Positions 5,359 to 41,986 of a stretch of 45,826 bases of DNA are shown piece by piece; position 1 is the first letter of the stretch; each line of letters starts with the position of its first letter. Source of the stretch: Pseudomonadales bacterium (GTDB taxonomy: Bacteria; Pseudomonadota; Gammaproteobacteria; Pseudomonadales; Pseudohongiellaceae); contig JAJDYJ010000099.1 in NCBI GenBank assembly GCA_022822865.1, forward strand, positions 1 to 45,826, read 5' to 3'. The position numbers were made by a program, and so were the translations under genes. Below the pieces are notes generated by a model. The model was not told where the DNA came from. It did not search any database and worked only from the letters and a program-made list of their open reading frames with translations.

Positions 5359-5469
5359 GTCGCCGTCTGGCGTGCGCAGTGTAGCGGGCGTGTGAGGCAG
5401 GATGCCGAACGCGAAGCCTACATGGATGTATTTACGGCGTCCGCTACACTGTGCACGCCAGACGGCGAC
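5359..5469. repeat. Variable-stem palindromic repeat, copy A
   Basis: Arms of about 32 nt (from 5359 and ending at 5469) are complementary with one mismatch in the first 30 bases. The loop carries the family core, GGCAGGATGCC followed by CCTACATGGATGTA and then TTTACGGCGTCC. The outer flanks (GTGCGA before, GGGTCGAAGC after) also match other copies. It separates merR from tRNA-Pro and may act as a transcript-end structure. Confidence 0.85.
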
Positions 5470-5478
5470 GGGTCGAAG

Positions 5479-5811
5479 CTAAAGCAAGTCGATGACCTGT
5501 TCGAGTTCCCGCGCCAGGGCGCCGATTTCGGCCGCGTTGGCCGGCGGGTTCCTCGCGGCCTCGTTCAGTTTGCGCCGCGCTCCGTCGATGGTAAAGCCCT
5601 GTTCGTACAACAGCGTCCTGATATTGCGCACGAGCAGCACATCCTGCATGCGGTAATAGCGCCGGTTCCCCCGCCGCTTGTCCGGTTGCAGGCCGGGAAA
5701 CTCCTTTTCCCAGTATCGCAGCACATGCGGTTTGACCGCGCACAGTTCGCTGACTTCGCCGATGGCGAAATAACGCTTGGGTGGAATCGGCGGCAGTTCT
5801 GCGCTAGTCAT
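5479..5811 (-). CDS. MerR family transcriptional regulator downstream of ihfA
   Basis: A small MerR-type DNA-binding protein of 110 residues. The N-terminal winged helix-turn-helix reads [21 protein letters not shown], followed by the wing ([13 protein letters not shown]) and a short helical tail that would dimerise. There is no effector-binding domain and no cysteine cluster, so a metal sensor is unlikely. It is the standard gene after ihfA in gammaproteobacteria; its targets are not established. The ATG overlaps the end of ihfA by eight bases, so the two are translationally coupled. Confidence 0.92.
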
Positions 5812-6112
5812 CGGGGCCGTTGTATCCTTCCACGTTGGACTTCAGTTTCTGCCCGGGCCGGAAAGTCACGACGCGGCGCGCCTCGATGGGGATCTCTTCG
5901 CCCGTCTTCGGATTCCTGCCGGGCCGCTGCTTCTTGTTCCGCAATTCGAAATTGCCGAAGCCCGACAGTTTGACGGGCTGGTTGTTTTCCAGGGAAAGGC
6001 GGATCTCCTCGAAAAACAGTTCCACGATTTCCTTGGCTTCGCGCTTGTTCAAGCCCAGTTCTTCAAAAAGATGTTCGGCCAAATCTGCCTTGGTCAGCGC
6101 CTTGTCGCCCAT
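5804..6112 (-). CDS. ihfA: Integration host factor alpha subunit
   Basis: IHF-alpha forms a heterodimer with IHF-beta (also in this window at 28115-28423) and bends DNA at specific sites. The 102 residues start [20 protein letters not shown]. The HU/IHF family core [20 protein letters not shown] includes the intercalating proline of the beta-arm ([12 protein letters not shown]). The frame extends 23 codons upstream, but that part overlaps the pheT 3-prime end and is not conserved. ATG 6112 follows a GGGGA-type site 13 bases after the pheT stop. This is the normal pheS-pheT-ihfA order. Confidence 0.96.
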
Positions 6113-6125
6113 GGATGTCCCCGGT

Positions 6126-8515
6126 TCAGTTACGTAAAGAAGCGTTAAAACTTGTCTGTAGCGCCTTGATTGTACTGCCAATTACCTGGTCGATCTCGGC
6201 ATCTCCAAGAGTGCGCGAAGGATGTTGCCAGGTCAAGCCCAAGGCGATGCTTTTGCTGCCTGCCGGCACCGCGCCGCCGCGATACACGTCCAGCACGCGC
6301 AAACTCGCCAGCAGCGGTCCCGCCGCATCGCGCACGGTCCGCTCGATATCGCTTGCCTCGAATTCCTCGCCGATCACGATAGCCAGGTCCCGGCTGACCT
6401 CGGGAAAGCGCGACGGCTCCGCCGCCACCGGCACTTCCTGCCGACAGAGCGCGTCGAGGCCCACTTCAAACAGAATTACAGCCGGCAAATCGAATTCTCT
6501 TTGCAGCGCGGGATGCAATACGCCGACAGTTCCGGCGCGTTCTCCATCGAGCAGGATTTCGGCGCATTGACCGGGATGCAGACCGGGTCGGGCAGCGGCG
6601 GTAAAGCGAAGGCGGGAAATCCTGCCGCCCAGACCGAACACCGACTCCAGGTCCCCTTTCGCATCGAAAAAGTCGGCGATCTCGTCGGAATTACTCCAGT
6701 TCTTCGGTTCCCGACCGCCGGCGATCAGACCCGCCAGCATCGCCTGCTGGCGAAATCCTTCGGATGTACGGCCGAATGCGAGGCCGGTCTCGAACAGGCG
6801 CAAATGTTCCTGCCGCCGATTCACGTTGTAACGCAAGGTCTGCACCAGCCCGGGCATGAGACTGGCGCGCATGACCGACATGTCGCGCGAGATCGGATTC
6901 CGCAGTTCGACGGTTTCCGCGGCTTCGACGCTGAAGTGGCCGGCCAGTCCCGGTTCGATGAAGCTGTAGGTGACGACTTCCTGGTATCCCAGCGCCACGA
7001 GATGATCGCGGACGCGGTCCAGCGCGATCTCGCTTTCCGGCGCCTGACCCATTTCCTGCCTGTAAAGGCCCATGGCCAGGGGCAACTTGTCGTATCCGTG
7101 GATGCGGGCGAGTTCCTCGAGCAAATCGGCTTCGATTGCTACGTCGTATCGGTACGAAGGCGCTTCCACGGTGATGTATCCGGCGCTTTCCTCCAGTATT
7201 GCGAAACCGAGCCTTGACAGGATATCCAGGACATCCTCGCGCGGTATTTCAACGCCCAGTACACGCGCAATGGAAGCGAATTCCAGCCGCACCTGCCGCG
7301 CTTCGGGTATCTCGCCCAGCGCTTCGGTAACCGGACCTGCTTCGCCGCCGGCGATCTCGAGCAGCAATTCCGTAGCCCGCGCCATGGCGCGATGCTGCAG
7401 GAGATAGTCGACCCCGCGTTCGTATCTTTGCGACGCATCGGTCTGCAATCCTGCTGCGCGCGCCCTGCCGGCGACCGCGAACGGCGCGAAGGAGGCGCAT
7501 TCGAGAAAAACATCGCTGGTCCGCTCGCTCACCGCGGTGTTCATGCCGCCCATGATGCCTGCCATGGCCACCGCTCCGGCGCCGTCGGCGATGACCAGCG
7601 TATCGGGCTGCAACGCAAGTTCCTTGCCGTCTAGCAATGTCAGTTTCTCGCCCGGGCGGGCCAGCCGCACGTCGATATGTTGCCGCAATTTGCCGAGATC
7701 GAACGCGTGCAGCGGTTGGCCGAGTTCGAGCAGAACGAAATTCGTCACATCGACAACAGGGTCGATGCAACGCAGACCGCCTCGCCGCAATTTTTCCTGC
7801 ATCCACAGGGGCGTTTCCGCATCGAGATCGATCCCCCGAATGACCCTGCCGAGGTAGCGTGGGCATTCCTTTCCGGCGCTGATGCGTACTGGAAACTCGT
7901 CTTCCAGGGTTACGGCGGGTTCGGAATCCGGCGGCGCGGCGACGTTGAGCCGCATCATCGCGCCGACGTCCCGGGCCAGGCCGAGCATTCCCAGGCAATC
8001 GCCCCGATTCGGCGTGAGATCGAGTTCGATACTGCTGTCGTCGAGCGCGAGATAATCCCGGATATCGGTCCCGACCGGCGCGTCGGCAGGCAATTCGAGC
8101 AGGCCAGTGGAAGATTCGGCCATGCCGAGTTCTTCCGCCGAACAGAGCATACCGCTGGATTCGACCCCGCGAATATCGGCCGTGCCTGTTTCCCTGTCTT
8201 CGCCGTCCTCGCCCGCCTGCCGAAATCCGGCGCCGACCCTGGCGTACGGCGCTTTCAAACCGATTCTCGTATTCGGCGCGCCGCAGACGACCCGATGGCT
8301 CGAGACGCCGTCATCGACCTCGCACACGTACAACGATTCCGCCGCGGGATGCGCATCCACGGCCACGACTTCGGCTACGACCACACCTGAGAATTCACCG
8401 GCCACGCGGGTACGGCCCCCTACTTCGAGGCCCGCCATGGTCAGGCTTTCGGCGAGTTCGACCGTGCCGACCGGGATGTTCACCCATTCCCTGAGCCAGG
8501 ATTCGCTGAAAATCA

Positions 8516-8516
<1 letters not shown>
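6126..8516 (-). CDS. pheT: Phenylalanyl-tRNA synthetase beta subunit
   Basis: The beta chain of the alpha2-beta2 enzyme that charges tRNA-Phe; it carries the editing site for misacylated Tyr-tRNA. Length is 796 residues, normal for bacteria. The N-terminal tRNA-binding (EMAP-like) domain occupies about 40-150, the B3/B4 editing region about 200-400, then B5, the inactive synthetase-like core and a C-terminal anticodon-binding ferredoxin-fold domain ([14 protein letters not shown]). The ATG shares one base with the pheS stop (TGATG), so the subunits are coupled at translation. No sign of disruption. Confidence 0.97.
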
Positions 8517-9911
<1,395 letters not shown>

Positions 9912-12954: not shown

Positions 12955-13068
12955 GTCACCGCCGGATGGCGGAGGGTACGGCGGACGCTGTGAATACATC
13001 CCTGTACGCTCCGCGCTCGGCATCCATGCCTCGCACGCCCGCCGTACCCTCCGCCATCCGGCGGTGAC
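12955..13068. repeat. Variable-stem palindromic repeat, copy B (reverse orientation)
   Basis: Thirty-base arms are perfectly complementary (from 12955 and ending at 13068). The loop read on the minus strand has GGCATGGATGCC, GAGCGCGGAGC and GTACAGGGATGTATTC. The flank after the right arm (TCACATGGTGCGGAAC) is the family outer flank. A short shared lead-in, ATTCTCATCTGGG, lies at about 12908. The stretch 12807-12954 holds no gene. Confidence 0.88.
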
Positions 13069-13123: not shown

Positions 13124-13170
13124 GTCGCCGTCGGGATGGGGGTGTGCGGCGGGCGTGCGAGGCAGGATGC
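13124..13170. repeat. Variable-stem repeat copy C, left half
   Basis: The left arm (13124-13156) and the first half of the loop (GGCAGGATGC) end where the integrative element begins. The matching right arm is at 20361-20393. The two arms differ at about three of 33 positions. The left flank CCCGCATGATGTTA is the normal family outer flank. Confidence 0.85.
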
Positions 13171-13189
13171 CGAGCCCTACCAGTACAGG
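13171..13189. other. attL of the integrative element
   Basis: The crossover core is CGAGCCC (13171-13177), followed by TACCAGTACAGG. The right end has CGAGCCC then GAAGCCTACAGG. The TACAGG at the same offset on both sides widens the similarity. The repeat sequence stops matching family members after the core, which places the boundary. Confidence 0.7.
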
Positions 13190-13474
13190 CCGCATTTTTA
13201 CTAGGTTTTTTTCCAAACTTACGTTAAATTACGTTAAGGCTGTAATTTTGTAGGCTTCCGTGCTGATGATTGATAGCGTCTAACAGTGTGTGATGGTTTG
13301 TGGCAGTGTTTTTCGCATGGTAGCATCTGCTCGCGTTCGCGTGAAATAGTTTTACCGGTCTGTTTCGTCTAGCGCGTTCGCTGCCGTGTCGCGTGGTTCT
13401 TGGTTAATCTTGCCGGATTGGTTGGGCATCGCGCTTCACGGTATTTTGATTATGGTCTTGTCTTGGAGTCCGTC

Positions 13475-13681
13475 ATGAATTCGTATCGTAATAAGAACTG
13501 CTCTAACTGTAAGTTTTCCGAGGTCTTTCAATCCGAGAATTACAAGGGTTCTCCGGCTGATGCCGGTCTGGTGATGTGTCGCCGTTATCCTGCTGTTGTT
13601 CTGCGTGATGCTGACAAGCTGGTTACTCGCTGGCCTGTTGTTCCTGCGTCGTCTTGGTGTGGTGAATGGCAAGCTGTTTAG
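13475..13681 (+). CDS. Four-cysteine mini-protein, possible zinc knuckle
   Basis: A protein of 68 residues starting MNSYRNKNCSNCKFSEVF. C9, C12, the C of VMCRRYP and the C of SSWCGEW give a CxxC...C...WCGE pattern. Small proteins with this CxxC, CRRYP and WCGE order occur in prophages and islands, from memory, but their role is unknown. Binding of one zinc ion is plausible. A TTG-started extension of 25 codons exists, but ATG 13475 has GGAG eight bases before it. It is the only cargo gene on the plus strand that I can support. The sequence before it (GGTCTTGTCTTGGAG) is repeated exactly at 17883-17897. Confidence 0.7.
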   Translation: MNSYRNKNCSNCKFSEVFQSENYKGSPADAGLVMCRRYPAVVLRDADKLVTRWPVVPASSWCGEWQAV

Positions 13682-14189
13682 GCTTGCTTTGTCTCTCTTG
13701 GTTCCTGATGCCCGTCTTGCGCTTTCTGCGCCGTACTCTCGTTGATCTCTGCCGTTCCCGTCCTGTTTGGTCCTGATGTCTGTCTCGCGCTCCCTGCGCG
13801 TCCCTGCTCGTCGATCTCTGCGTTTCCGGTCCATCGCGGTTCCGGTTCCCTTCCTCGCGCTCCTAGTGCTTCCCTGTGCGTCGATCTTTTCCGGTGTCGG
13901 CTTCCCGGTCTCGGTTCCTTTCCTACCCGTCTGGCGTTGCCTGTCAATTTCTGTCCCGGCGTGTTGTGGCACTCTGGCATGACTTCCCGTCCCGTTGGCA
14001 TGGCCCTTGCTCTCTCCCGCCTGATTACTGACTGCTTTCAGTAGTCCGCCTATCTAGCAGTCTCGCGGTTATGCTCTATCACGTTCGTGGTGATGGTTGT
14101 TCGCGGACGATTACCGATACCAGGGATGTATCGTGTTACAAGTGCATGGATGCACTTATAGACAGTTTGCGCGGCATCGCCGCGCTTCG
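13682..14189. other. Non-coding pyrimidine-rich stretch with hairpins
   Basis: No gene is supported. The plus strand from 13685 to about 13970 is strongly C+T rich with short recurring motifs (CGGTTCC, CGTCGATCT). Part of it (about 13871-13908) recurs in degenerate form at 17562-17602. At its end two hairpins follow the ankyrin gene: AAGTGCAT-GG-ATGCACTT (14140-14157) and GCGCGGC-ATC-GCCGCGC (14169-14185). The latter sits just after the ankyrin stop and may end that transcript. Confidence 0.6.
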
Positions 14190-15296
14190 TTACCTAGCAC
14201 CTGCATCTTCCAACATACGCACAATTTCTATATTCCCTTTTAGCTCCGCCAGACGTAAAGCACTCTCTCCCGCTTCACCGCTCGCGTCCGCTCCTGCTCT
14301 AAGTAGTTCGCTGACAATTTCGGGTTCATTGTTAGAAGTAGCTATCCACAACACAGTATCTGGGAAGTCCGGTGATACTGTTATTTCGAGATCGGCGTTG
14401 TGGGAAATAAGTAACCGTACCATATCCAAATTTCCATCTCTCGCAGCGTCCATTAGATGCGTATAACCCGCGCTGTCTGCCCAATTAACGTTGGCGCCTG
14501 CATCAATCAGTAGTTCTGCAATTTCCGGTCTTGATTCTCGAATAGCATTGCTTAGAGGGGTTCTATCACCATCGGTTGTGACAAAATTCACATCCGCCCC
14601 GGAATTTACCAGTGCTTGAATACTGTCAATGTCAGCGGAGTTTGACGCTGTTAAAAGACGGTGGTTATATCCTTGTGCGTCACGCCTTGCATCTTCAATG
14701 TTACGTTTTTCGCGCAAGTAATCTCCATATGCTTCATCGACTACATCAATGTTAACAAGCTGCTCTGAAGTCAGATAAGGTGCCAATCGTTCCTGCAAAT
14801 CTTCAATGGAGAGTAAGTTATTCAACATTTCAAATGGCGTTATATCTCCATTGGTCATTGCGTAATATATCTCAGAATTGAACTGCTCCCACTCCGTGAT
14901 AATGGCACGAACGACCGGCTCATTCTCAAGCCCCATGTTGTTAATGACCTCTTCCCACTTCTGCTTATAAGCACTTTCCGCCAATAAAACAGGTTCCGGT
15001 GCCTGCCGAAGAAAATCAGACCACACTGTTTTATATCCCGGTGGAGGTTCCGAGCGGGTTCCGGTGGATTCAACTGTTTGGCTCTGCTGTCTGTCGGTGC
15101 CAGATGGTTCTACTTCACGGGAAGTCAACTGTGTAGCGGACTGTTCGGATTCGACCTGCACTTGCCGCAATACTCCATCGGCGGATTCCCTAAAATCCGA
15201 GTCTTGCTCAGTAGGCCAAAACAGGGAAAGTGCTCCCAGGAACGCGACAGTTCCCAGGAGCAACAATCCTCGATTTTTCACGTTAAAGTGAATCAT
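14190..15296 (-). CDS. Membrane-anchored ankyrin-repeat protein
   Basis: This protein of 368 residues has one hydrophobic segment at about 10-28 (NRGLLLLGTVAFLGALSLFW) after a short basic start. It is a signal anchor, so the rest should face the periplasm. A Ser/Thr/Glu-rich linker (30-90) and a helical region (90-215) follow. The C-terminal part has at least four ankyrin repeats, with signatures such as ALVNSGADVN, TPLSNAIRES, LLIDAGANVNWADSAGYTHL and LLRAGADA. Ankyrin arrays bind other proteins. ATG 15296 overlaps the stop of the upstream secreted-protein gene by one base (TAATG), so the pair is translationally coupled and probably interacts. In other systems periplasmic ankyrin proteins can be immunity or inhibitor partners, but that role here is only a guess. 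Confidence 0.85.
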   Translation of the reverse strand: MIHFNVKNRGLLLLGTVAFLGALSLFWPTEQDSDFRESADGVLRQVQVESEQSATQLTSREVEPSGTDRQQSQTVESTGTRSEPPPGYKTVWSDFLRQAPEPVLLAESAYKQKWEEVINNMGLENEPVVRAIITEWEQFNSEIYYAMTNGDITPFEMLNNLLSIEDLQERLAPYLTSEQLVNIDVVDEAYGDYLREKRNIEDARRDAQGYNHRLLTASNSADIDSIQALVNSGADVNFVTTDGDRTPLSNAIRESRPEIAELLIDAGANVNWADSAGYTHLMDAARDGNLDMVRLLISHNADLEITVSPDFPDTVLWIATSNNEPEIVSELLRAGADASGEAGESALRLAELKGNIEIVRMLEDAGAR

Positions 15297-15928
15297 TATC
15301 CTGCATCCTGCTCGCAAGTGACTGTTCCTTCATCATCCTCCTCACAATTGGTTGTTCCGGAACCGCCGCCGGACCCGTTGCCAACTGGATACATAGTTAC
15401 TTTTCCAATGGGTTCAATAGGCAGATTGTACCGATCCCTGTAAGGTTGAGTTGGATCATAGTCTCCTCCCCCGCCTTCGCTGCCATCCTGATTGTCTTGC
15501 GGCTGGGAGTTATTGTTTGAGTCTGATGGCTCATCCGGCGGCGTACAGTTATCTATTGCTTCCCTCTGTTCATCCAGAACCTCGTTATACTCATCATTAT
15601 AATCCTCTTGAATCTGTGGTATCTCTCTTTGGTATTCTTCATACAAATCATTCAATTGTTCCTGTCGCTCGTCCGGGTCGGTTACTTCATTTTCAATCCG
15701 TTGCGCTTCCCTGATGTAATCTCTTTCGGCGTTTGTGAGGGCAATTGATTGCCTTCTTCTAACTTCGTTTAACAGTCTTGAGTATCTTAGTGATTCTCTA
15801 TCGATACAACTCGCAACCTCCCGCTGTGCATAGGCGTTTTGGGTTGGTGCGCTGGTGATAAAGAAAACCACAAACAACGCAACCGCATTGATTATAGTTC
15901 CTTTAACTGCTTTCTCTCTGAGTTTCAT
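15296..15928 (-). CDS. Secreted coiled-coil protein of unknown function
   Basis: The 210 residues begin with a clear signal peptide (basic KLREKAVKG, then hydrophobic NAVALFVVFFITSAPTQNAYA and a likely cleavage after AYA-Q). Residues 40-125 are charged and helical with heptad-like spacing (RRRQSIALTNAERDYIREAQ and on), predicting a coiled coil. The tail is Asn/Gln/Gly/Asp rich and contains GNGSGGGSG and a pair of cysteines (NCEEDDEG.VTCEQ) that could form a disulfide. No lipobox is present. AAGGAAA precedes the ATG. No family is recognised. It is coupled to the ankyrin gene and is the first gene of that pair. Confidence 0.8.
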   Translation of the reverse strand: MKLREKAVKGTIINAVALFVVFFITSAPTQNAYAQREVASCIDRESLRYSRLLNEVRRRQSIALTNAERDYIREAQRIENEVTDPDERQEQLNDLYEEYQREIPQIQEDYNDEYNEVLDEQREAIDNCTPPDEPSDSNNNSQPQDNQDGSEGGGGDYDPTQPYRDRYNLPIEPIGKVTMYPVGNGSGGGSGTTNCEEDDEGTVTCEQDAG

Positions 15929-16195
15929 GTGACGTTTTCCTTGCGTTTCCGATTACGTAAATTCCCGGATTGATGCCGGGCCGTACGTAATCGACGCAGT
16001 AACCCCACGTGACTCCTCGCCTATTTGCCGGACCCGGTAGCTAATCGGGTCTTGCTATGGCTGTTGTATTCAGCAAGCAACCCGGCTCGGACCGGGCTAC
16101 TGATCGATTACGTACTGGTGACGCTATCGCAGGTGATTGGCGGTTGTCAACAACCGCCCGCGTAGCGTTCCGGTTTTTCTGTGCAAGCACAAGAA

Positions 16196-16229
16196 AAAAG
16201 GCGAACCCCGTCCGTGGGGTTCGCCTTTT
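16196..16229 (-). terminator. Bidirectional rho-independent terminator
   Basis: AAAAGGCGAACCCC-GTCCGT-GGGGTTCGCCTTTT is a perfect 14-bp stem with A/T runs on both sides. It lies just after the leftward two-gene unit that ends at 16261. The remaining bases 15929-16195 hold only small hairpins such as CCCGGCTCGGACCGGG and no gene. Confidence 0.88.
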
Positions 16230-16260
16230 GGTTTGGGCCGTCCGTGGCCTCCAATGATCG

Positions 16261-16455
16261 TCAGTTCGTTTCGGTTTCCTGTTCGTCGAACAGTAGATCG
16301 GACGCGCCTTCTGTCTCGCTCTTGGCGCGGTCGATGTCGTGCATCGCGCCGTTGAGGTCGTCCAGATCTGGATTGCCTGCTAGCAGTTCGAGCGCGGATT
16401 GCAGGTGCTTCCGCGCTCGTTCGATGTTGCCGTTGATTTCCTGCCGATGGTTCAT
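16261..16455 (-). CDS. Small helical protein (64 residues)
   Basis: The sequence starts MNHRQEINGNIERARKHLQS and is acidic and helical throughout, with a single repeat-like pattern (RARKHLQSALELL / NGAMHDIDRAKSE). No family is recognised. AGGAGA lies seven bases before the ATG. It is the second gene of a two-gene unit 11 bases after its partner and ends at the strong terminator. Two-gene pairs of tiny proteins in mobile elements are often regulatory, but nothing in the sequence shows this. Confidence 0.7.
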   Translation of the reverse strand: MNHRQEINGNIERARKHLQSALELLAGNPDLDDLNGAMHDIDRAKSETEGASDLLFDEQETETN

Positions 16456-16466
16456 GGTTGCGTCTC

Positions 16467-16661
16467 CTATGCGGTCGGCTCGTCGTCACTTGGCAGGAAG
16501 CGGGTGCCCACGTCCTGCCAGTTGATGAACAGATTGTGAATCATGTGTTCCGCCCATTCCCTGGCGGCCTCGATGCTCTCGGCTTCGATGGTTTCCTCGT
16601 GCAATACTTCCCTGGTGCCCTTGCTGCCCCATTGGACTTTAACTGTTGCGGTGGTATTCAT
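16467..16661 (-). CDS. Small protein with a single beta-alpha domain (64 residues)
   Basis: The protein starts MNTTATVKVQWGSKGTREVL, predicting a beta hairpin, and continues with a helix (ESIEAAREWAEHMIHNLF). The frame extends 26 codons upstream, but ATG 16661 has AGGAGA at ideal spacing and is chosen. No family is recognised. It is the first gene of the two-gene unit. Its promoter region runs into the hairpin array to the right. Confidence 0.7.
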   Translation of the reverse strand: MNTTATVKVQWGSKGTREVLHEETIEAESIEAAREWAEHMIHNLFINWQDVGTRFLPSDDEPTA

Positions 16662-16856
16662 TGGATGATCTCCTGTTGTGCCCGTCGCTTCGTGCGCGGG
16701 ATGCTGCAAGGTGAACACGGATAAGTCAGGGCCGGGCAAAGCCCGCCCGTAGCGTAGCGAAGGGTTTAGCCTTGACCCGTGTTATCCTGAAAGCAACCCG
16801 CGTGCGTTGCGACTCTCCCTAGCGTTTTGGCCGTTGTGAAGTTTTCGCGTAGCCAG

Positions 16857-17322
16857 GCTTCGAGCGAAGCGAGTTAGCCAGGCTTGGCGAATACTGCACT
16901 TCGGCCAGCGGCCAGCTTGCATTGTCTCTATCGAAGTCTTTGGTTTTCCAGCGAGCGAAGCGAGCGCATGTAGGCGCGGACGCGCCGTGTGCTGTAAGTA
17001 GCAAGCGGAGCTTGCTTCATTGGTTTCCCGCCCTGGGCGCGAAGCGCCCGCCGTTCCCTCCGCGGCGCGAAGCGCCGCCCGGTTTTGACTTTCATACAGC
17101 GATGCGAAGCGTCGCCCGGTTTTGATCGTAATATGGCGCGGCGCGTAGCGCCGCTTCTTCTCACAACACATGGATGTGTTGTACGGCTAGGGTCAAGGGG
17201 ATGGGCCGCGTTCAGCGGCCACATGGCCTTGTTGATGGTGGAAACCGCGAAGCGGTTTCCGGCATCAAGCCCTTGACCTTGATTTTTCGCCGGCGCTGCC
17301 GGCGTTGCAGCCGATAGGCTGC
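16857..17322. repeat. Hairpin array with GAA/GTA triloops
   Basis: About a dozen strong hairpins lie in 466 bases without a gene. Examples: GGGCGC-GAA-GCGCCC (17035-17049), GCGGCGC-GAA-GCGCCGC (17062-17078), GCGATGC-GAA-GCGTCGC with one G-T pair (17099-17115), GCGGCGC-GTA-GCGCCGC (17138-17154), ACAACACA-TGGA-TGTGTTGT (17163-17182), GGAAACCGC-GAA-GCGGTTTCC (17240-17260), CGCCGGC-GCT-GCCGGCG (17288-17304) and GCAGCC-GATA-GGCTGC (17307-17322). A longer pairing, GGTCAAGGG with CCCTTGACC, would enclose two of them. The flanks 16662-16856 and 17323-17640 also lack genes; (GCCT)4 occurs near 17460. Confidence 0.88.
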
Positions 17323-17646
17323 TTTATCGTGAAGCTGGTTATTACCAGGCGTGTCAGGCTTATATCGGATTTCTGCAATTAATTTCTACAATCCTAAATT
17401 CTTACTCATTTTAATTTCACTGTATGAAATTTCTTTATTCAATCCCTATTGAATTTTATTGCCTGCCTGCCTGCCTGGGTTCTCTGCTTCACGTTGTAGC
17501 CGGTTGCGAATGCAAGCGGCGTTATTCTCTGTACCGGTTCCCTCCCTGGCGTTCTACGTGCTTCCCTGCTCGACGATCTTTCCCGGTCCGACCTCGGCTT
17601 GAATGCTTGCTCGCTTGCAGAATCCTGCAAGCCGAAAGGTCCAAAT

Positions 17647-17745
17647 TTGACAGTTTTCAAAATCCATTCTAAGCTGCGCCGCTTATGCGGGTTCCCTTGT
17701 TCTTTATCCCGCAACTTTTCAATAGGCCAATTCTTTGGCCTTTTG
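17647..17745 (+). ncRNA. Candidate small RNA unit (promoter to terminator)
   Basis: A TTGACA (17647-17652), 17-base spacer and weak TAAGCT would start a plus-strand transcript near 17682. It would fold GCGGG (17687) with CCCGC (17712) and end at GGCCAA-TTCT-TTGGCC followed by TTTT (17725-17744). This makes a 60-65 nt RNA. The same DNA is partly used by a small ORF on the other strand, so only one of the two may be real. Confidence 0.35.
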
Positions 17746-17856
17746 ATTGGTTATAGTCGTGCATGAAAAGCCGGGTTTCCCCGGCTTAGTCTTGTACGCT
17801 TTTTGATGGTCTCGGCGCGATAGCGCCGTTAGGATTCCGATACAGTATTCGTTCAT
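17719..17856 (-). CDS. Possible 45-residue protein
   Basis: The frame starts MNEYCIGILTALSRRDHQKA and ends KAKELAY. AGAGG lies six bases before the ATG. It contains two DNA hairpins (17813-17828 and 17768-17787), which is unusual for coding sequence but common in this element. No family is recognised. It could be a chance ORF. Confidence 0.35.
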   Translation of the reverse strand: MNEYCIGILTALSRRDHQKAYKTKPGKPGFSCTTITNQKAKELAY

Positions 17857-17934
17857 TTCGCACCTCTTGTTACGCTTTAATCGGTCTTGTCTTGGAGAAT
17901 CTTGTACTTTACTCCTTACGATTTTCTCGTTTTT

Positions 17935-18105
17935 CGGCTTCCAGGCTTGACCTGGTTGCCGATGTCTTCCGTGGTCGATTTCCGATCTGTTCAGTTCCAG
18001 GCGTTCGGCCTGGTCTCTTCTCCGGCTTCGAGGCTTTGACCTCGTTGCCGATCTTCTTCGGTTCGATCTTTGATCTGTGCCGTTAGGCTTCCAGGCTTGT
18101 CCTGG
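17935..18105. repeat. Degenerate tandem unit with compensated hairpins
   Basis: Three imperfect units share CGGCTTC-hairpin-TTGCCG followed by TTCGATC-like text. Their hairpins are CCAGG-CTTGA-CCTGG (17941-17955), CGAGG-CTTTGA-CCTCG (18029-18044) and CCAGG-CTTGT-CCTGG (18091-18105); a fourth is CCAGG-CGTTCGG-CCTGG (17997-18013). The second C-G pair changes to G-C in one unit on both sides, so pairing is kept. It lies just downstream of the AlpA-like gene. Confidence 0.65.
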
Positions 18106-18131
18106 TTGCCGGTTTCTGTCGGTTGGCTGGA

Positions 18132-18482
18132 TTAGCCGGGAATCCTGATGCTGCTGCGTCGCCTATCGTCGGCTGGTTCCGCCGGTGATTGAACGGTGAC
18201 GTTGATGATATTCAATACAGGGCTTTCTTGGTCTGGTTTTGTTTCGTGCCTGGTTTCTTCCGTCCGTGTCGTCGCGGTGCCGGTTGTCTGGTTGCCGTTC
18301 AGGAATGCTTCGCATTCGCTGATTTTCCATTTTGGTTTTGCTCCGATTTTCTTTCCCGGTGGCGGAAATTGTCCTTCTCTAATATGTCTGCGGAAGGTCT
18401 GTTCGCTCTTGTAACTGTAGTGCTCCATTATTTCTTTCCGGCTTTTCCACGGTTCCGGTTGTCCTGATCGTGGTTCGTTCAT
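18132..18482 (-). CDS. AlpA/excisionase-like DNA-binding protein
   Basis: The 116 residues hold a winged-helix domain at about 13-62: SRKEIMEHYSYKSEQTFRRH followed by IREGQFPPPGKKIGAKPKWKISE. The order start of helix, RRHI-like recognition helix, GxFPxP wing and W/K-x-xE ending matches AlpA and excisionase regulators of P4-type elements. In those systems the protein activates integrase transcription or directs excision. The C-terminal half is Thr/Glu-rich and probably unstructured. GAGG lies seven bases before the ATG. It sits 450 bases downstream of the integrase stop on the same strand, as expected for such an element. Confidence 0.75.
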   Translation of the reverse strand: MNEPRSGQPEPWKSRKEIMEHYSYKSEQTFRRHIREGQFPPPGKKIGAKPKWKISECEAFLNGNQTTGTATTRTEETRHETKPDQESPVLNIINVTVQSPAEPADDRRRSSIRIPG

Positions 18483-18933
18483 GCTGCGGCCTCGTTGTTC
18501 GGTCGGTCTCGGTTGTCTGGTCGGTTCTCGATCTTATCTGATCTCGGCCTGTCTGTCTGTTCGGTGTTTCTGGCGATTGCAAGTATTTTTGACAGTTTCC
18601 GATTTCTATGGTAAAAGAACGGTTTGCCGTTCTCGATACCCATACCTTAACTTTTCGTCTTCCGTAACTCTTTGATTTTCCGTCTTGGCCGGTGGTTCGT
18701 AATTCCGGGTTCAAGCTGCTGTTCGGTACTCGTTCACACTCTCGGTTGCCTCGGTTGGTTTCCTCTTGACCGTAAGGGCAAGAGGCGATTTTTTCGCCTT
18801 TGATCTTTCCTGATCCGTGGTTTGTTTGTGATTATTGGAGATGGTTTTCAGTTGATTATCGGAACAGTTGTTTACCTGAATTTCTCGTTCCCCGGTTTTT
18901 TGATGGTCTGATAACCGTTTCGATTGATGTGGC
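18483..18933. other. Gap between excisionase-like and integrase genes
   Basis: No gene is supported here. A plus-strand promoter-like pair TTGACA-17-TAAAAG lies at 18589-18617, followed at once by hairpin GAACGG-TTTG-CCGTTC (18617-18632). A hairpin AGGCGA-loop-TCGCCT at 18783-18799 with T-rich flanks could end the integrase transcript, and CCTCTTG/CAAGAGG lies just before it. The first 300 bases are again C+T rich on the plus strand. Confidence 0.5.
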
Positions 18934-20184
18934 TTAGGTCGCGTTCTGTGGCGTTCTGGCAGGGATTCCTTTCCCTGCCGCTTCTGTTAGAAACTTGCTG
19001 TATGCTTCCATGATTTCCCGCCGTCTCTCGATAGTCTGCGCCCGGTTGTATGCTCTCTCTACCATGCTTCCGACTTCATGCGCTAGACACTGTTCCACAA
19101 GGTCCGGCTTGTAGTCCGTTTCCTCGTGTGCCCAGGTCTTGAATACTGCCCGGGTTCCGTGGTTATCCATCTTTCCCTTGATGCCGATCTTTTCCCGTAG
19201 TCTGTCGAGGCTGATAATGTTCAGGTGCTTGGCTGCCTTGTTCGTCGATGGGAATACGTGTTCCCGTCCGTCTCCCAAGTCCTTCGCCTGTTTCAGGATG
19301 TCCATAGCTTCCGCGCTAAGCGGTATGCTGTGCTCCTTCGATGTTTTCATCCTCTCGGCTGGTATCGTCCAGATTCGGCTTTTCAGGTCTATTTCGGTCC
19401 ATTGGGCCGCCAGTGTCTCCGATGCTCTTGTAGCCGTGTGCGCCATGAATTGCCATGCCAGTTTGTGAATTGGATTTGCGTTGCATTCCCTGATCTTTCG
19501 GATTATCTCCGGCATTGCCGAATGATGTACGGCTTTTCGGTTCTGGACTTTGGCCTTGGTTCCCTTCGGTAGAATTGCGTCGATTACTTCCCCGGCCGCG
19601 TTGGTGTCGGTGTATCCCTTGCCGATCGCGTAACTGATCGCGGTTCGCAGGTCCGCCCGCATTCGCTTCCCGCTTTCCGTGTGCCATATCGGTTTCAGCA
19701 CGTCGCCGATGTCGTTCGGCGTGATCTGGTTGACCGGCTGGTCCAGTAGCGTCCCGCCGTTTCGTTCGATGAATCGCTGTTGCTTCGCCAGATTGCGCCC
19801 GCCGTCCTTCGCGGATTCCATTCGGATTTTGAACGATTCGGCCATGCAGTCCCGCAAGCTTGGCGCGTCCGTGCCTTGCGCGAATGGTATTACCAGGTCC
19901 GTCCCGTACTTGTGTTCAATGGCTACCGGTCTCGGGTCTTTCCCTCTGACCGTCATTCCCTTGTAGTGTCGCGCCAGGTTTCTGGCTTCCTCTATTTTCA
20001 GCTCCGGCAGTTTCCCTAGTCGTATCTCGATAATCTGTCCTTTCAGCATTCCACGATATACGAAATGCTTGTGTGGTTGCTTCTTGCCTGGTCTTACTTC
20101 GAGGTACAGGTTACAGCCGTCGCTCAGTCGGTACGGCTTGGCCTTCGCCCTTGCCGTCTTGATTTTCTGATTGTCTAGCCTCAT
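18934..20184 (-). CDS. Tyrosine integrase (P4/IntS type)
   Basis: This site-specific recombinase of 416 residues would insert and excise the element. The N-terminal arm-binding domain (DUF4102 type, about 1-90) has AKPYRLSDGCNLYLEVRPG. A SAM-like core-binding domain follows (about 100-195), then the catalytic domain. The active-site set is complete: R253 (ATRASE), K283, H342-x-x-R345 (HGTR), H369 and nucleophile Y379 (VERAYNR). CCGGAG lies nine bases before ATG 20184. The gene faces inwards, with attR about 150 bases upstream of its start. P4-type integrases usually use tRNA genes; here the target is an intergenic repeat. It appears intact. Confidence 0.95.
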   Translation of the reverse strand: MRLDNQKIKTARAKAKPYRLSDGCNLYLEVRPGKKQPHKHFVYRGMLKGQIIEIRLGKLPELKIEEARNLARHYKGMTVRGKDPRPVAIEHKYGTDLVIPFAQGTDAPSLRDCMAESFKIRMESAKDGGRNLAKQQRFIERNGGTLLDQPVNQITPNDIGDVLKPIWHTESGKRMRADLRTAISYAIGKGYTDTNAAGEVIDAILPKGTKAKVQNRKAVHHSAMPEIIRKIRECNANPIHKLAWQFMAHTATRASETLAAQWTEIDLKSRIWTIPAERMKTSKEHSIPLSAEAMDILKQAKDLGDGREHVFPSTNKAAKHLNIISLDRLREKIGIKGKMDNHGTRAVFKTWAHEETDYKPDLVEQCLAHEVGSMVERAYNRAQTIERRREIMEAYSKFLTEAAGKGIPARTPQNAT

Positions 20185-20240
20185 GATGCTACGCTCCGGT
20201 TACTTACAGTTTTATTACGTTAAATGTACTTACAGGATGG

Positions 20241-20270
20241 ATACTAACATGCACTTTCAAGGACTGTCAA
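20241..20270 (-). promoter_or_regulatory. Integrase promoter
   Basis: On the minus strand TTGACA (20265-20270), 18 bases and TAGTAT (20241-20246) preceded by TGT form a strong sigma-70 promoter with an extended -10. Between it and the gene are two copies of TACTTACAG (20201-20209, 20227-20235) 26 bases apart, with ATTACGTTAA (20214-20223) between them. These may bind the integrase or its regulator. Confidence 0.75.
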
Positions 20271-20329
20271 CAACTATTTTTTTATAATGTTTTCAGATAC
20301 TTATAGATTTCGCGCGGTGTGTAGTGGTT

Positions 20330-20348
20330 CGAGCCCGAAGCCTACAGG
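20330..20348. other. attR of the integrative element
   Basis: CGAGCCC (20330-20336) is identical to the core at attL, and is followed by GAAGCCTACAGG, which restores the repeat sequence seen in other copies (CGAACGCGAAGCCTACA in copy A). Left of it is element DNA with no repeat similarity. Confidence 0.7.
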
Positions 20349-20400
20349 GACGTATTTACGGCGTCCGCCGCGCACCCCCATCCCGACGGCGACGGCTCGA
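20337..20400. repeat. Variable-stem repeat copy C, right half
   Basis: The second half of the loop (CTACAGGGACGTATTTACGG) and the right arm (20361-20393) complement the left arm at 13124-13156. The outer flank GGCTCGAAGC matches the family. Together with the left half it makes one complete repeat once the element is removed. Confidence 0.85.
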
Positions 20401-26504: not shown

Positions 26505-26588
26505 GCAATTCTCATATTGGCTTCTAGTATCTCTTCGAGGTCGACAACGGCCGGTTCCGCACAATGTGAGTCGCCGCCGGGTCGAAGC
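26505..26588. repeat. Remnant of the variable-stem repeat, copy D
   Basis: The lead-in GCAATTCTCAT (26505-26515) is identical to that before copy E at 36803-36813. GTTCCGCACAATGTGAGTCG (from about 26554) is the outer left flank and is joined almost directly to GGGTCGAAGC, the outer right flank. Arms and loop are missing, as if excised cleanly. Confidence 0.65.
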
Positions 26589-26627
26589 AAAAAATCGGGC
26601 GCTTGAGAATAATCTGCAAGCGCCCGA
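26589..26627 (-). terminator. Terminator of the ComEA-like gene
   Basis: On the minus strand TCGGGCGCTTG / CAAGCGCCCGA forms an 11-bp stem with an 11-base loop, followed by TTTTTT. It begins 10 bases after the gene ends. Confidence 0.88.
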
Positions 26628-36615: not shown

Positions 36616-36743
36616 AATTTGAAAATACTTTGAACTGCGTTACTTATTGATTTATCGGCGGATTTCGCGGCTGCTGAACGCACCGGGGAATGACGCGAAT
36701 TTTAACACACTGTCGCTTCGATTGCTTAGGCCGATGCACATTG

Positions 36744-36786
36744 GCTTCGATCCGTCTCCGCCGGGTGGAGCGGGGTGCGGCGAAGG
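36744..36786. repeat. Fragment of the variable-stem repeat
   Basis: GCTTCGATCCGTCTCCGCCG and the following GGGTGGAGCGGGGTGCGG are one outer flank and one arm of the family, closely similar to copy E 100 bases away, but the partner arm is missing. The space 36616-36743 upstream of gyrA holds no gene. Confidence 0.6.
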
Positions 36787-36855
36787 ATGAATTGTTGCTG
36801 CGGCAATTCTCATTTGGGTCTGAAGTGTTCTTGTGAGGTTGTGTGGATTCTACCC

Positions 36856-36968
36856 GTCGCCTCCGGGTGGCGCGGGGTGCGGCGGACGCTGTAAATACAT
36901 CCCTGTAAGCTCCGAGCTCGACATCCTGTCTCGCACGCCCGCCGCACCCCGCGCCACCCGGAGGCGAC
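36856..36968. repeat. Variable-stem palindromic repeat, copy E (reverse orientation)
   Basis: Thirty-base arms are perfectly complementary. The loop read on the minus strand has GGATGTCGAGCTCGGAGC and TTACAGGGATGTATTTAC. The outer flank (TAACATGGTGCGGGACC) is well preserved, as is the lead-in GCAATTCTCAT at 36803. Confidence 0.88.
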
Positions 36969-37026
36969 TAACATGGTGCGGGACCTGAGGAGCTGGGCTT
37001 CGATTACGAAACGAGAATTTTGGTGT

Positions 37027-38396: not shown

Positions 38397-38413
38397 ATAC
38401 GGGCAGGACCGCA

Positions 38414-39127
38414 ATGGAAAATCTCGATCCACAGGAAATCCGCAAGTTCGAGGAACTGGCCAGCCGCTGGTGGGATCCGAACAGCGAATTCAGGCCCTTG
38501 CATGAAATCAATCCCCTGCGCATGGGGTACATCGCACGCATGGTCAATCCAGCCGGGAAAAAAGTAGTTGACGTAGGCTGCGGCGGCGGGATCCTCACCG
38601 AAGCCATGCGCCGCCATGGCGCCGAGGTCACCGGCATCGACATGGCCGACGCCGCGCTTGCGGTCGCCCGGCTGCATTTGCAGGAAAGCGGCCTCGATAT
38701 CGACTACCGGAAATGCACGGCGGAACAACTCGCAGACGAGGCGCCGGAAGAATTCGACCTGCTGACCTGTCTGGAAATGCTCGAACACGTACCCGACCCG
38801 GGCTCGGTGGTCGAGGCCTGCCGGCGCCTGCTCAAACCTGGAGGACTGGCGGTTTTCTCCACGATCAACCGCAATCCGAAATCCTGGCTGTTCGCCATTG
38901 TCGGCGCCGAATACATCTTGCGCCTGCTCCCCCGGGGCACTCACGAATACGCGAAACTGATCAAGCCGTCGGAACTCGCGGGCTGGTGCCGCGCCGCCGG
39001 TCTGGAACTCGAAGCGCAGATCGGCATGGGCTACAACCCGATTACCAAAAGGTATTTTCTGCAACGGAACCTGGACGTGAATTACATCGCCTGCTATCGC
39101 AAGCCCGCCGCGCCGGAAGCCCATTGA
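38414..39127 (+). CDS. ubiG: Ubiquinone biosynthesis O-methyltransferase
   Basis: Does both O-methylations in ubiquinone synthesis using SAM. It has 237 residues and starts MENLDPQEIRKFEELASRWW. SAM motif I is VVDVGCGGGIL (51-61), then VTGIDMA and the LEMLEHVPDP segment; RLLPRGTHEY near residue 175 is the UbiG-specific membrane-binding stretch. AGGA precedes ATG 38414, which is 17 bases after the mtaD stop. The stop overlaps the next start by one base (TGATG). Confidence 0.96.
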   Translation: MENLDPQEIRKFEELASRWWDPNSEFRPLHEINPLRMGYIARMVNPAGKKVVDVGCGGGILTEAMRRHGAEVTGIDMADAALAVARLHLQESGLDIDYRKCTAEQLADEAPEEFDLLTCLEMLEHVPDPGSVVEACRRLLKPGGLAVFSTINRNPKSWLFAIVGAEYILRLLPRGTHEYAKLIKPSELAGWCRAAGLELEAQIGMGYNPITKRYFLQRNLDVNYIACYRKPAAPEAH

Positions 39128-39885
39128 TGTTCGACTATCGTCCCCCCGCGGACCTGCTCGCGGGCCGCACGATCCTGGTTACCGGCGCCGGCAGCGGCAT
39201 CGGCCGGGCTTGCACACTGAGCCTGCTGGCGCATGGCGCGAACGTCGTCATGTTGAGCCGCAGCCGGAGCAAACTGGAAAACCTGTACGACGAGGCGGAG
39301 CGGTCCTGGCCGGGCCGGAGCTTCATTCAGCCGATAGATTTGAGCCGCGCCGGGACCGATGACTATGCCGCCATCGCCGCGAGCGTCGAACGGCAGTTTC
39401 CCGCCCTCGACGGGCTCGTGCATAACGCCGCCGTGCTCGGGCCGCGTTCGCCGATCGAATTCTATCCCGAGAAGCAATGGCGGGAAGCGATGCAGGTTAA
39501 CGTCAACGCGGCTTTCCTGCTGACGCAATGCCTGCTTCCCTCACTGGCGAAATCGGCCGATGCCCGCATCCTGTTCACCGCTTCCTCGGTAGGCCGCGAA
39601 GGGCGCGCCTGGTGGGGCGCCTACGCGGTGTCGAAGTTCGCCGTGGAAGGGATCATGCAAACCCTGGCGGCGGAAGTCGGCACGACTACTTCGATCCGGG
39701 TCAACAGTCTGAATCCCGGCGGCACGCGTACCGCGATGCGCGCCGCGGCCTATCCCGGCGAAAATCCGGACACCCTGCCGACGCCGGAATCGCTCATGCC
39801 GGTGTATCTCTATCTGCTCGGGCCCGATGGGCGAGACCTGCACGGTCAGGCATTGGATGTGCGGGATTTCGATCCGCGTCCGTAA
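39127..39885 (+). CDS. Short-chain dehydrogenase (YciK-like)
   Basis: A cytoplasmic oxidoreductase of 252 residues. The cofactor site TGAGSGIG is at 19-26, NAAVLG at about 100, and the catalytic set is S143/S144 (TASSVG), Y156 and K160 (YAVSK). In YciK-type proteins the substrate is not known. In Pseudomonas a phosphatase gene (mupP) lies between ubiG and this gene; here they touch. Its 3-prime end overlaps the convergent rluB by 40 bases. Confidence 0.92.
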   Translation: MFDYRPPADLLAGRTILVTGAGSGIGRACTLSLLAHGANVVMLSRSRSKLENLYDEAERSWPGRSFIQPIDLSRAGTDDYAAIAASVERQFPALDGLVHNAAVLGPRSPIEFYPEKQWREAMQVNVNAAFLLTQCLLPSLAKSADARILFTASSVGREGRAWWGAYAVSKFAVEGIMQTLAAEVGTTTSIRVNSLNPGGTRTAMRAAAYPGENPDTLPTPESLMPVYLYLLGPDGRDLHGQALDVRDFDPRP

Positions 39886-40604
39886 TTCCGCAATTCATCG
39901 ATTTCCGCTTGCTTGAGTTCGTGAAATTTACCCGCGGACACCGAACTCGGAATGAATACGGGGCCGAAACGCACTCTTTTCAGGCGGCTGACCTTGACGC
40001 CCTGGGACTGCCAGATTTTCCGCACCTCCCGATTGCGGCCTTCCATCAGTACGACGTGATACCACTGGTTCGCGCCTTCGCCGCCGAAAAAGCGGATATC
40101 GCTGAAACGGCACTCGTGGCCGTCTACGTCCACGCCTGTGCGCATTCGCTGCAACATTTCCCCGGTTACCTCTCCGAGCACGCGCACGGCGTATTCCCGA
40201 TCGATGCCGCTGGACGGATGCATGAGGCGGTGGGCCAATTCGCCGTCGTTGGTGAACAACAACAGTCCGCTGGAATTCAGATCGAGCCTGCCGACGGAAA
40301 TCCAGCGGCTGTTGCGCAGGGGCGGCAGGCGGTCGAATACGGTGGGACGTCCTTCCGGGTCGGAACGGGTGCAGACTTCATTTTCCGGCTTGTTGTACAA
40401 CAGCACGCGGCAGCGCGGCTTTTTCTTCCTGTCCGCCCGGATTTTCCTGCCGTCGACCGCTATCCGGTCTTCCGGCTCGACCCGGTCTCCAAGCGTTGCA
40501 AGCCTGCCGTTGACCTGCACGCGGCCTGCGCTGATCCATTCCTCCAGCGTTCTGCGCGAACCGAGGCCGGCGCGCGCCAGCACTTTTTGCAGTTTCTCGC
40601 TCAT
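39846..40604 (-). CDS. rluB: 23S rRNA pseudouridine synthase RluB
   Basis: Makes pseudouridine 2605 in 23S rRNA (E. coli numbering). It has 252 residues. An S4 RNA-binding domain (SEKLQKVLARAGLGSRRTLE) is followed by the RsuA-family catalytic domain with D108 in GRLDLNSSGLLLFTNDGEL, and the motif MEGRNREVRKIW. ATG 40604 is chosen, since the 33-codon extension lies in the repeat copy F. RluE or RluF types differ mainly by length, and 252 residues with this start fit RluB. The short C-terminus lacks the long basic tail of some RluBs. Confidence 0.9.
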   Translation of the reverse strand: MSEKLQKVLARAGLGSRRTLEEWISAGRVQVNGRLATLGDRVEPEDRIAVDGRKIRADRKKKPRCRVLLYNKPENEVCTRSDPEGRPTVFDRLPPLRNSRWISVGRLDLNSSGLLLFTNDGELAHRLMHPSSGIDREYAVRVLGEVTGEMLQRMRTGVDVDGHECRFSDIRFFGGEGANQWYHVVLMEGRNREVRKIWQSQGVKVSRLKRVRFGPVFIPSSVSAGKFHELKQAEIDELRNYGRGSKSRTSNA

Positions 40605-40623
40605 GACTTCGTGGCTTCGATCC

Positions 40624-40736
40624 GTCGCCGTCGGGTTGCGACTAGTGCAGCGGACGCCGTAAATACATCCCTGTAGGCTTCGCGTTCGACATCCATGTCT
40701 CACACGCCCGCTGCAATGAGCCCGCCTGACAGCGAC
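40624..40736. repeat. Variable-stem palindromic repeat, copy F (reverse, degenerate)
   Basis: The loop is well preserved (CGTAAATACATCCCTGTAGG and GACATCCATGTC on the plus strand) but the arms have decayed and pair poorly in the middle. The ends (GTCGC, GCAGCGG) still match. It lies between rluB and the acyltransferase gene, 20 bases upstream of the rluB start. Confidence 0.8.
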
Positions 40737-40760
40737 TCACGCCGTGCGGGACCCCCTCTG

Positions 40761-41663
40761 TCAATAGAACCCGGTGTTGTCGGGTTGGCGGCGGAAGCGT
40801 TTGTATTCCCATTGATATTGGTCGGGGCATTCCTGGACCATTTCTTCGATGGCCTGGTTCATGGCTGTCACGGAATCGTCGAGATTTTCGTAGCGCAGGT
40901 CCAGTTCCCGGACCACGGCGCGGAAGCCGGCGCTTTTGGGCAGTCTCGCGGCGTAGCCACAGAAAACTCTGACTCCGTTGCGCTGCGCCAGTTTGCAGGC
41001 CAGGGTCATGGTGTAGGCGGGCTGGGCGAAGAAGGGAGCGAAGACGCCGCTGCCGTCGGCTGGGACCTGATCGGGCAGGATGCCGACGAGTTCGCCGGCG
41101 CGCAAGGCTCGCAGCAGCTTGTTGACGCCTGCCTGTCCGCCGGCGGCCATGCGCAATCCGCCGCGGGCGCGGCTGCGCACCAACAGGCGATCAAGCGCGG
41201 GATTGTCGGGGGGCATGTACAGGAAGTGGGCGGGTGAGCCGTGGCACATTGATATTCCGAATATTTCCCAGTTTCCCAAATGCGGCGCGAGCAGAATGAC
41301 CCCGTTGCCGGCTGCGACGGCATCGCGAAACTCGTTGACGCCTTCCGCCTCCCGGATCAGTTTAGCCATCCGCGGCATCGGCCAGATCCACGCGCGGCCC
41401 ATTTCGAACAGGGCGCACAGCGAATGCCGCAGGCTGCGCCGGGCGAGATCGCGGACGGACGGCTCGTCGAGCTGCGGAAAGCATGCCTTCAAATTGCGCA
41501 AGGTGGTGCGCGCCGCTCGGTTCGGCAAGCGCAGCAGCAGGCTGCCGAGCGGTCGCGCCAGGCCATGCAGCAACGGCAGGGGCAGCAGGGCGCTAGTCGT
41601 TAGAAAAAGCCGTAAAAACAAATACTTGATTATGGCGGCGATCCTTGTTTGATGTTGCGGCAC
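40761..41663 (-). CDS. Lipid A / lysophospholipid acyltransferase (LpxL/HtrB family)
   Basis: An inner-membrane enzyme that adds a secondary acyl chain to lipid A. It has 300 residues from a GTG start with AGGAG just before it. One N-terminal hydrophobic segment (AAIIKYLFLRLFLTTSALL) anchors it. The catalytic H-x4-E is H128/E133 in APHLGNWEIFG. Further family blocks are RARGGLRMAAGG and the ILPDQVPADGSGVFAPFFAQ stretch. The gene is divergent from glyQ; P. aeruginosa also has a lauroyl transferase gene near glyQS. Chain length and position preference cannot be told from sequence. Confidence 0.9.
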   Translation of the reverse strand: MPQHQTRIAAIIKYLFLRLFLTTSALLPLPLLHGLARPLGSLLLRLPNRAARTTLRNLKACFPQLDEPSVRDLARRSLRHSLCALFEMGRAWIWPMPRMAKLIREAEGVNEFRDAVAAGNGVILLAPHLGNWEIFGISMCHGSPAHFLYMPPDNPALDRLLVRSRARGGLRMAAGGQAGVNKLLRALRAGELVGILPDQVPADGSGVFAPFFAQPAYTMTLACKLAQRNGVRVFCGYAARLPKSAGFRAVVRELDLRYENLDDSVTAMNQAIEEMVQECPDQYQWEYKRFRRQPDNTGFY

Positions 41664-41752
41664 CCGCTCCTGGCCGGCGGGGCGGTGGCTTCGAGCGGCT
41701 CCGCGGGCGGAAGTCCCCTCGAAGCCACCACTCAACGGATCCCTCAGCCCGA

Positions 41753-41986
41753 GTCGTCGTCATGTGGGCTTATTTCAGCGGGCGTGTGAGGGTGAGGCCC
41801 GGTCGGCAAAGCCGACAAGAAGCAGCGCTTCTTGAGGACCGAACGACTTGCCATGGATGGCAAGGCTGGAGTTGATCGGAGTCTACAGCCTTGCGCCAGG
41901 GATGGCATGTACAATCCTACTCGAAGTCAATGATTGAATGACCCTAATTTACGGCGTCCGCTGAACTAAGCCCACCTGACGACGAC
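41753..41986. repeat. Variable-stem palindromic repeat, copy G (long loop)
   Basis: Arms of 32 nt pair with two mismatches in the first 30, ending in GCGGGCG / GGCGTCCGC as usual. The loop is about 170 bases instead of 50 and holds different small dyads (GCCATGGATGGCAAGGC, AAGAAGCAGCGCTTCTT-like) while keeping the closing TTTACGGCGTCCGC. It fills the space between the acyltransferase and glyQ. Confidence 0.75.

Follow-up and report, generated by a model that had tools for sequence, protein, structure and literature searches.

Csr/Rsm sponge small RNAs (sRNAs), such as CsrB/C and RsmX/Y/Z, carry several GGA motifs in hairpin loops. The consensus of CsrA ligands obtained by systematic evolution of ligands by exponential enrichment (SELEX) is described as RUACARGGAUGU, with ACA and GGA invariant and GGA located in a hairpin loop in 51 of 55 ligands (PMC7652899). 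TwoAYGGAY RNA (RF01731) is described as a shared stem that bears two terminal loops with GGA and is predicted to bind CsrA (PMC4333381). Ysr224 (Rfam RF02770), a Yersinia sRNA, is reported as multicopy and transcribed in Y. ruckeri (PMC12112432) and as one of the 20 most prevalent annotated bacterial sRNAs (PMC9029176). In quasipalindrome correction and template-switch hairpins, arms are matched by copying and spacers may invert (Ripley 1982; Lovett; Monttinen and Loytynoja 2022; PMC8794818, PMC8604942, PMC7202029). The two products described for template switching are arm homogenisation and spacer inversion (PMC8604942), and template switching has been proposed to maintain RNA stems (PMC8794818). 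Here we analyse a repeated hairpin element in a 45,826-nt stretch of a Pseudomonadales bacterium (contig JAJDYJ010000099.1; hereafter the window). On balance, we lean to the view that the copies represent a dispersed hairpin family with a predicted CsrA-dimer cap, in which the stem is kept paired mainly by copying from arm to arm, with weaker selection on the GGA-bearing strand.

The element resembles each of these systems in part. Like the sponge sRNAs, it has several GGA motifs in hairpin loops; unlike them, it occurs in tens to hundreds of dispersed copies, has a very long free stem, and shows no U-tract after the copies read. Like TwoAYGGAY RNA, it has two GGA loops on a shared stem, but the TwoAYGGAY model gives no match at E values up to 5 in 12 copy-bearing loci, nor at its cut-off in the window or in 18 further loci. 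Copies from Yersinia similis/Pectobacterium exceed the Ysr224 cut-off of 70 bits (L106, 129.9; L074, 126.5; L080, 73.3; L and G numbers are our handles for loci and genomes), whereas none of the window copies reaches it, the best score in the window's own genome being 20.6 bits (L020). Ysr224 and TwoAYGGAY are therefore rejected as names for the window copies. The initial annotation knew of no named family; Ysr224 covers the relatives in Yersinia and Pectobacterium. REP/RAYT palindromes are likewise multicopy, short, and intergenic, but the present element is longer and has a two-hairpin cap; REP/RAYT is rejected, with no Y1 transposase in the same-genus carriers G000 (the window's genome), G018, G021, G029, G032, and G036. 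Unlike in known quasipalindrome correction, arm-to-arm copying would here recur over long times across a dispersed family that includes orthologous loci. Literature searches for CsrA together with dispersed, interspersed, or palindromic repeats list no paper whose title describes the family.

Read on the GGA strand, a copy begins with the outer flank TCCGCACAATGTGA, followed by an arm (GTCGCC...GCGG) and hairpin 1 (GGCA-UGGA-UGCC and variants). A linker, hairpin 2 (UACA-GGGA-UGUA within GCC...GGC), the second arm, and the outer flank GGATCGAAGCCAC complete it. In the predicted fold of this strand, two small hairpins with GGA apical loops sit on top of a stem of about 29 bp. Copy A folds at -81.9 kcal/mol into the stem and both hairpins, and L010 and L231 have the same shape; both small hairpins are obtained by energy folding in copies A and F, L010, and L231. 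The small hairpins and the stem ends are conserved, and the middle of the stem is variable. The initial annotation noted the shared loop, which is indeed constant, but missed the two GGA hairpins within it.

It also singled out copy G as the exception, correctly, since this copy has its own loop of about 170 nt. The long loop is a dispersed class in itself and carries its own GGA hairpins, e.g., UUGCCA-UGGA-UGGCAA. In the window's genome, 103 places match the outer flank with at most one mismatch. Thirty of these, found by the flank alone, divide as follows: 11 are short two-hairpin copies, nine readings from eight loci belong to the long-loop class of copy G, six lie at contig ends and have inserted-looking sequence starting GGTCCGCTCC, and four are of other kinds. 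Long loops in other lineages also present GGA in apical loops, several on the opposite strand. In several lineages (L052, L073, L079, L087, L098, L115, L128, L141, and L147), a longer sequence interrupts hairpin 1's loop or takes its place, in some cases with opposite-strand GGA hairpins.

In the window's genome, a 16-base loop pattern matches exactly at 48 places and a 23-base pattern at 60; the reversed patterns give none. Six carrier genomes in the window's genus have 60, 48, 43, 10, 9, and 1 exact cores, and the exact core is absent from 31 examined genomes of the same genus. It is present in 14 of 369 genomes drawn from Gammaproteobacteria, in one of them 355 times. Genome G305 (5.1 Mb, two contigs) carries its 355 exact cores in nearly equal numbers on the two strands (181 and 174). 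A scan of contigs yields at least 117 stretches with the core; the 80 with names shown all belong to Gammaproteobacteria or its subgroups, except two labelled Proteobacteria only. Across lineages, the copies have a common plan and differing stems, and isolate genomes, e.g., Methylotuvimicrobium buryatense 5G (at least eight exact cores) and Methylomicrobium sp. wino1, show the same structure. On this evidence, the copies belong to a dispersed non-coding repeat family of Gammaproteobacteria that extends far beyond the window. The family is broad and largely unnamed.

Relatives of the Yersinia copy are found on 17 plasmid records, 14 of which are predicted conjugative; among 5,426 E. coli genomes, 5 have one, in four cases on a plasmid. 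The plasmids come from Klebsiella, Citrobacter, Escherichia, and others, and no annotated gene lies beneath the match among the 15 matches listed. Copy A has no match in plasmids. A phage vehicle is rejected, since the Yersinia copy has no blastn match in phage records and viral contigs contain one exact core.

To describe stem variation, we took 163 of the 173 exact cores in seven genomes. Both arms are readable in 110 (105 ungapped, 5 gapped), and 103 copies from five genomes were aligned; in the left-out copies, an arm is missing at a contig end, the loop is long, or the copy is decayed. In the alignment, 98.0% of cells are paired, and sliding the partner by 1-3 columns leaves just 31-49% paired. 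Double-changed cells number 606, whereas shuffling yields 148.7 on average and none of 500 shuffles reaches the observed figure; the covariation score is 0.447 against 0.134 shuffled; p-values from such samples are overstated, as related copies are not independent. In particular, columns 23/103 show all four Watson-Crick pairs (G-C 45, C-G 31, U-A 19, A-U 7, other 1), and columns 29/97 show U-A 46, G-C 42, A-U 12, C-G 1, and other 2. The arms are 27-31 bp long and equal on both sides in 72 of 74 readable copies, which corresponds to matched indels.

Stems differ between copies and match themselves, as the initial annotation held: in 31 copies of the window's genome, arm identity is 96.4% within a copy and 67.3% between copies, and a left arm is 53.7% identical to the right arm of another copy. 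Had the arms fallen into a few families shared between loci, the idea of a free stem would have failed. No such collapse is seen, although the arms have a loose G/T-rich consensus and those of some loci are up to 97% alike. The variable part of the 5' arm in the genus copies is 53% G, 21% T, and only 7% A.

The spectrum of changes points to copying between arms. In 18 reciprocal nearest-neighbour contrasts within the genus, there are 21 paired transitions, 17 paired transversions, and 20 single changes; the corresponding counts for 13 contrasts outside it are 10, 16, and 23. Paired transversions are thus about as common as paired transitions, and the orthologous flanks have a ratio of transitions to transversions of 405:326. 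L020 and L231, which occupy the same place in two genomes, both have perfect 29-bp arms, and 8 of the 29 pairs differ, always on both sides, two of them by transversion. Comparison of orthologous loci in relatives gives four usable pairs of eight; in their 116 stem pairs, both sides changed together 16 times (10 transitions, 6 transversions) and one side alone 5 times. Flank divergence at these loci is 15.6%, and paired stem change is about equally fast. A 16-state pair model expects 14.6 paired changes with arm-to-arm copying and 0.3, about fifty-fold fewer, with selection alone, against 16 observed. It expects 10 single changes with copying and 4.6 with selection alone, against 5 observed; as choosing intact arms favours paired over single changes, the paired count is the firmer figure. 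Paired transversions expected under selection alone number 0.08, and 6 are observed.

Four orthologous pairs were left out of the rate test. L179/L206 (1 paired, 16 unpaired) and L013/L196 (1 paired, 15 unpaired) have decayed or shifted arms, the register of L182/L280 (5 paired, 15 unpaired) is unclear, and L286/L247 (7 paired, 2 unpaired) contains one indel. All eight pairs together have 30 paired and 53 single or unpaired changes.

Loop order gives a further sign of template switching. Of 122 copies classed, L001, L043, and L253, whose arms are perfect, carry an inverted loop with respect to the outer flanks, and 70 have the usual order; the remainder are unclear or have like flanks. In L007, the loop also appears inverted by eye. 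Two expectations of template switching are thus seen here: paired changes at the neutral rate with the mutational spectrum, and spacer inversion. Maintenance of stem pairing mainly by arm-to-arm copying best explains these patterns of sequence change.

Selection appears to act in addition. In 3,045 pairs of 105 genus copies, G.U occurs 48 times and A.C 9 times (p = 1.5e-7, overstated by relatedness as above), and in 2,841 pairs of 99 copies outside the genus, G.U occurs 135 times and A.C 45 times; the aligner scores both alike. Copying alone would give equal numbers of the two, so the excess of G.U indicates that constraint falls on the GGA strand in single-stranded form. That strand may be RNA or DNA, and the GGA loops favour RNA. 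Hairpin 1, which lay outside the search pattern, has 53 different stems in 90 short copies outside the genus, and GGA is kept in 82 of the 90. The initial annotation had offered arm-to-arm correction or selection for a hairpin of free sequence, and both seem to act: the former accounts for the frequent paired transversions, the equal arms, the near-neutral paired change, and the loop inversions, and the latter for the G.U excess and the GGA loops retained on varying hairpin stems.

The commonest form of hairpin 2 agrees with the CsrA SELEX consensus in 11 of 12 positions, and a CsrA gene was found in all 20 carriers examined. The two-hairpin cap is, as predicted from motif and fold, most likely a docking pair for a CsrA/RsmA dimer, and the GGA strand would then be transcribed. 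In the proposed mechanism, this strand would fold into the stem of about 29 bp, and the two GGA hairpins at its top would form a paired site for the dimer. The middle of the stem would need only to pair. Arm-to-arm copying, presumably by replication template switching or by conversion within the palindrome, would either copy a new stem mutation to the opposite arm or erase it, and weaker selection on the folded GGA strand would supplement the copying. A more far-reaching version, possible but in our view doubtful, is that the family is a widespread mobile RNA element combining a CsrA-dimer docking cap with template switching as built-in self-repair of the stem, whereby the fold would be passed on regardless of its sequence; on this reading, genomes with tens to hundreds of copies would hold CsrA decoys scattered around the chromosome or plasmids they occupy.

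Several observations weigh against the proposal that copying maintains a CsrA-binding hairpin. Three of the four excluded orthologous pairs have many unpaired differences, and as arms are decayed or shifted in three of the eight, not every copy stays paired. If copying acted alone, G.U and A.C should be equally frequent and unpaired changes about twice as many as observed; copying accounts for the paired changes, and the shortage of single changes together with the G.U excess calls for a contribution from selection. Sequence exchange among copies of different loci could give a false impression of fast paired change. The minimum-energy cap differs in copy E and L012, and L018, L140, and L068 form hairpin 1 only. 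The search pattern itself prescribed the GGA of hairpin 2, whose conservation therefore carries no weight, and CsrA is common in Gammaproteobacteria, so its presence in the carriers is weak support. The Rfam model of Ysr224 lies on the opposite (UCC) strand and lacks the stem with two GGA hairpins. The copies lie without bias in either sense relative to neighbouring genes (5 sense and 3 antisense in the own genome, 27 and 31 elsewhere, with a home-made gene caller), and the sense placement expected of a read-through sponge sRNA is not seen. A role solely as an element of host mRNAs is unsupported, as orientation to genes is unbiased.

Ordinary compensatory evolution, in which selection for pairing acts in two separate steps per pair, mostly via G.U and without copying between arms, would yield strong covariation, more G.U than A.C, and close to the observed number of unpaired changes. 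However, it falls far short of the paired changes and paired transversions counted, U-A and G-C alternate at columns 29/97 without any G.U, and matched indels and loop inversions are left unexplained. We consider it rather improbable. The pair model ignores double mutants that arise together in very large populations. The differences between orthologous stems could instead stem from replacement of whole copies by other copies rather than from joint change of the arms in place. The orthologues L020/L231 and L286/L247 do differ in loop type as well, and the same loop types occur at unrelated loci, but this only moves the problem, as a stock of more than 100 distinct paired stems must still arise, and the single-locus pairs L018/L285 and L278/L171 are separated by just 1 and 3 paired changes. 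Such overwriting is even less probable as the main source of the differences.

A mobile DNA hairpin whose single-stranded form is recognised by some recombinase or transposase, with the GGA loops as recognition signal and no RNA function, is unlikely but the strongest of these alternatives. It agrees with the patchy, bursty distribution inside one genus, the unbiased orientation, and the relatives on plasmids, and single-stranded DNA also tolerates G.T pairs. On the other hand, no mobilising enzyme was found: Y1 transposases are absent from the six same-genus carriers above, though one is present in the same-order carrier G041 and five same-genus non-carriers (G001, G004, G005, G015, and G027) also lack them. 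No target-site duplication exceeds the shuffled control in 50 copies, and the near-agreement with the CsrA consensus would have to be accidental. Sites of relatives without copy G (L295-L297) are too diverged for exact junctions. An assembly artefact at palindromes of a draft genome would fit the many copies at contig ends. In L004, L200, and L279, near contig starts, the two flanks mirror each other, and these three are possible fold-back artefacts. For the family as a whole, such an origin is highly improbable, since the isolate genomes show the same structure, the flanks on the two sides differ in most interior copies, and two loop-ending contigs (L006 and L039) between them hold a single copy-specific stem, one half each.

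The copies in the window are listed in Table 1. All six full copies of the initial annotation are present, with arms and loops as described, and the four 15-base stem strings it quoted are correct. Perfect complementarity, which it noted in two copies, is found in C and E. Its statement that complementarity is kept in each copy holds for A, C, D, and E, with one G.U each in A and D; G has two mismatches, and F falls short of the statement, its arms matching poorly. The counterpart of copy F in G021 (L196) has perfect arms. More than 30 consecutive G at about 45760-45797, inside the truncated copy near the contig end, are probably a sequencing artefact at a hairpin.

Table 1 Copies and fragments of the element in the window.
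Feature	Position	Strand	Description
Copy A	5359..5469	+ (GGA strand)	Complete short two-hairpin copy; predicted fold, stem and two GGA hairpins, z -11.4
Copy C	12955..13068	- (GGA strand)	Complete short copy, arms perfect; folding z -12.6
Copy D, left part	13124..13177	+	Left arm and hairpin 1, ends at insertion point
Copy D, right part	20330..20393	+	Hairpin 2 and right arm, beyond 7,159-bp insert; pairs with 13124-13152, one G.U
Remnant	26556..26590	+	Outer flank and beginning of an arm
Fragment beside copy E	36742..36789	-	Outer flank and one arm of another copy
Copy E	36856..36968	- (GGA strand)	Complete short copy, arms perfect; z -10.3 for 36859-36969
Copy F	40624..40736	-	Short copy, arms degraded; z -3.1
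Copy G	41753..41986	+	Long-loop class, own GGA hairpins CCAUGGAUGG and CCAGGGAUGG; z -7.1
Truncated further copy	45739..45764	+	Copy start, then long G tract near contig end

Copy D is split by an element (window 13178-20336) that lies in its loop, and the half-stems, 7.2 kb apart, still match. CGAGCCC is repeated on both sides of the insert (13171-13177 and 20330-20336), which encodes a tyrosine recombinase (18934-20184, minus strand; Pfam Phage_integrase) and an ankyrin-repeat gene. The junction, GGTTCGAGCCC, is one that we take to resemble a tRNA T-arm. A similar element end is found at the identical loop position in another copy, L232 (G018). In several contig-end copies (L306, L308, L309, L319, L322, and L332; L008 and L040), one of two repeated sequences that resemble mobile-element termini begins inside the loop.

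The family bears directly on the open question whether long perfect RNA stems persist through selection or through copying between arms: more than 100 replicate hairpins in one genus, with orthologous loci, let the two be distinguished. If the cap binds CsrA, the family would provide a dispersed source of sites for a well-studied global regulator and suggest a function for Ysr224.
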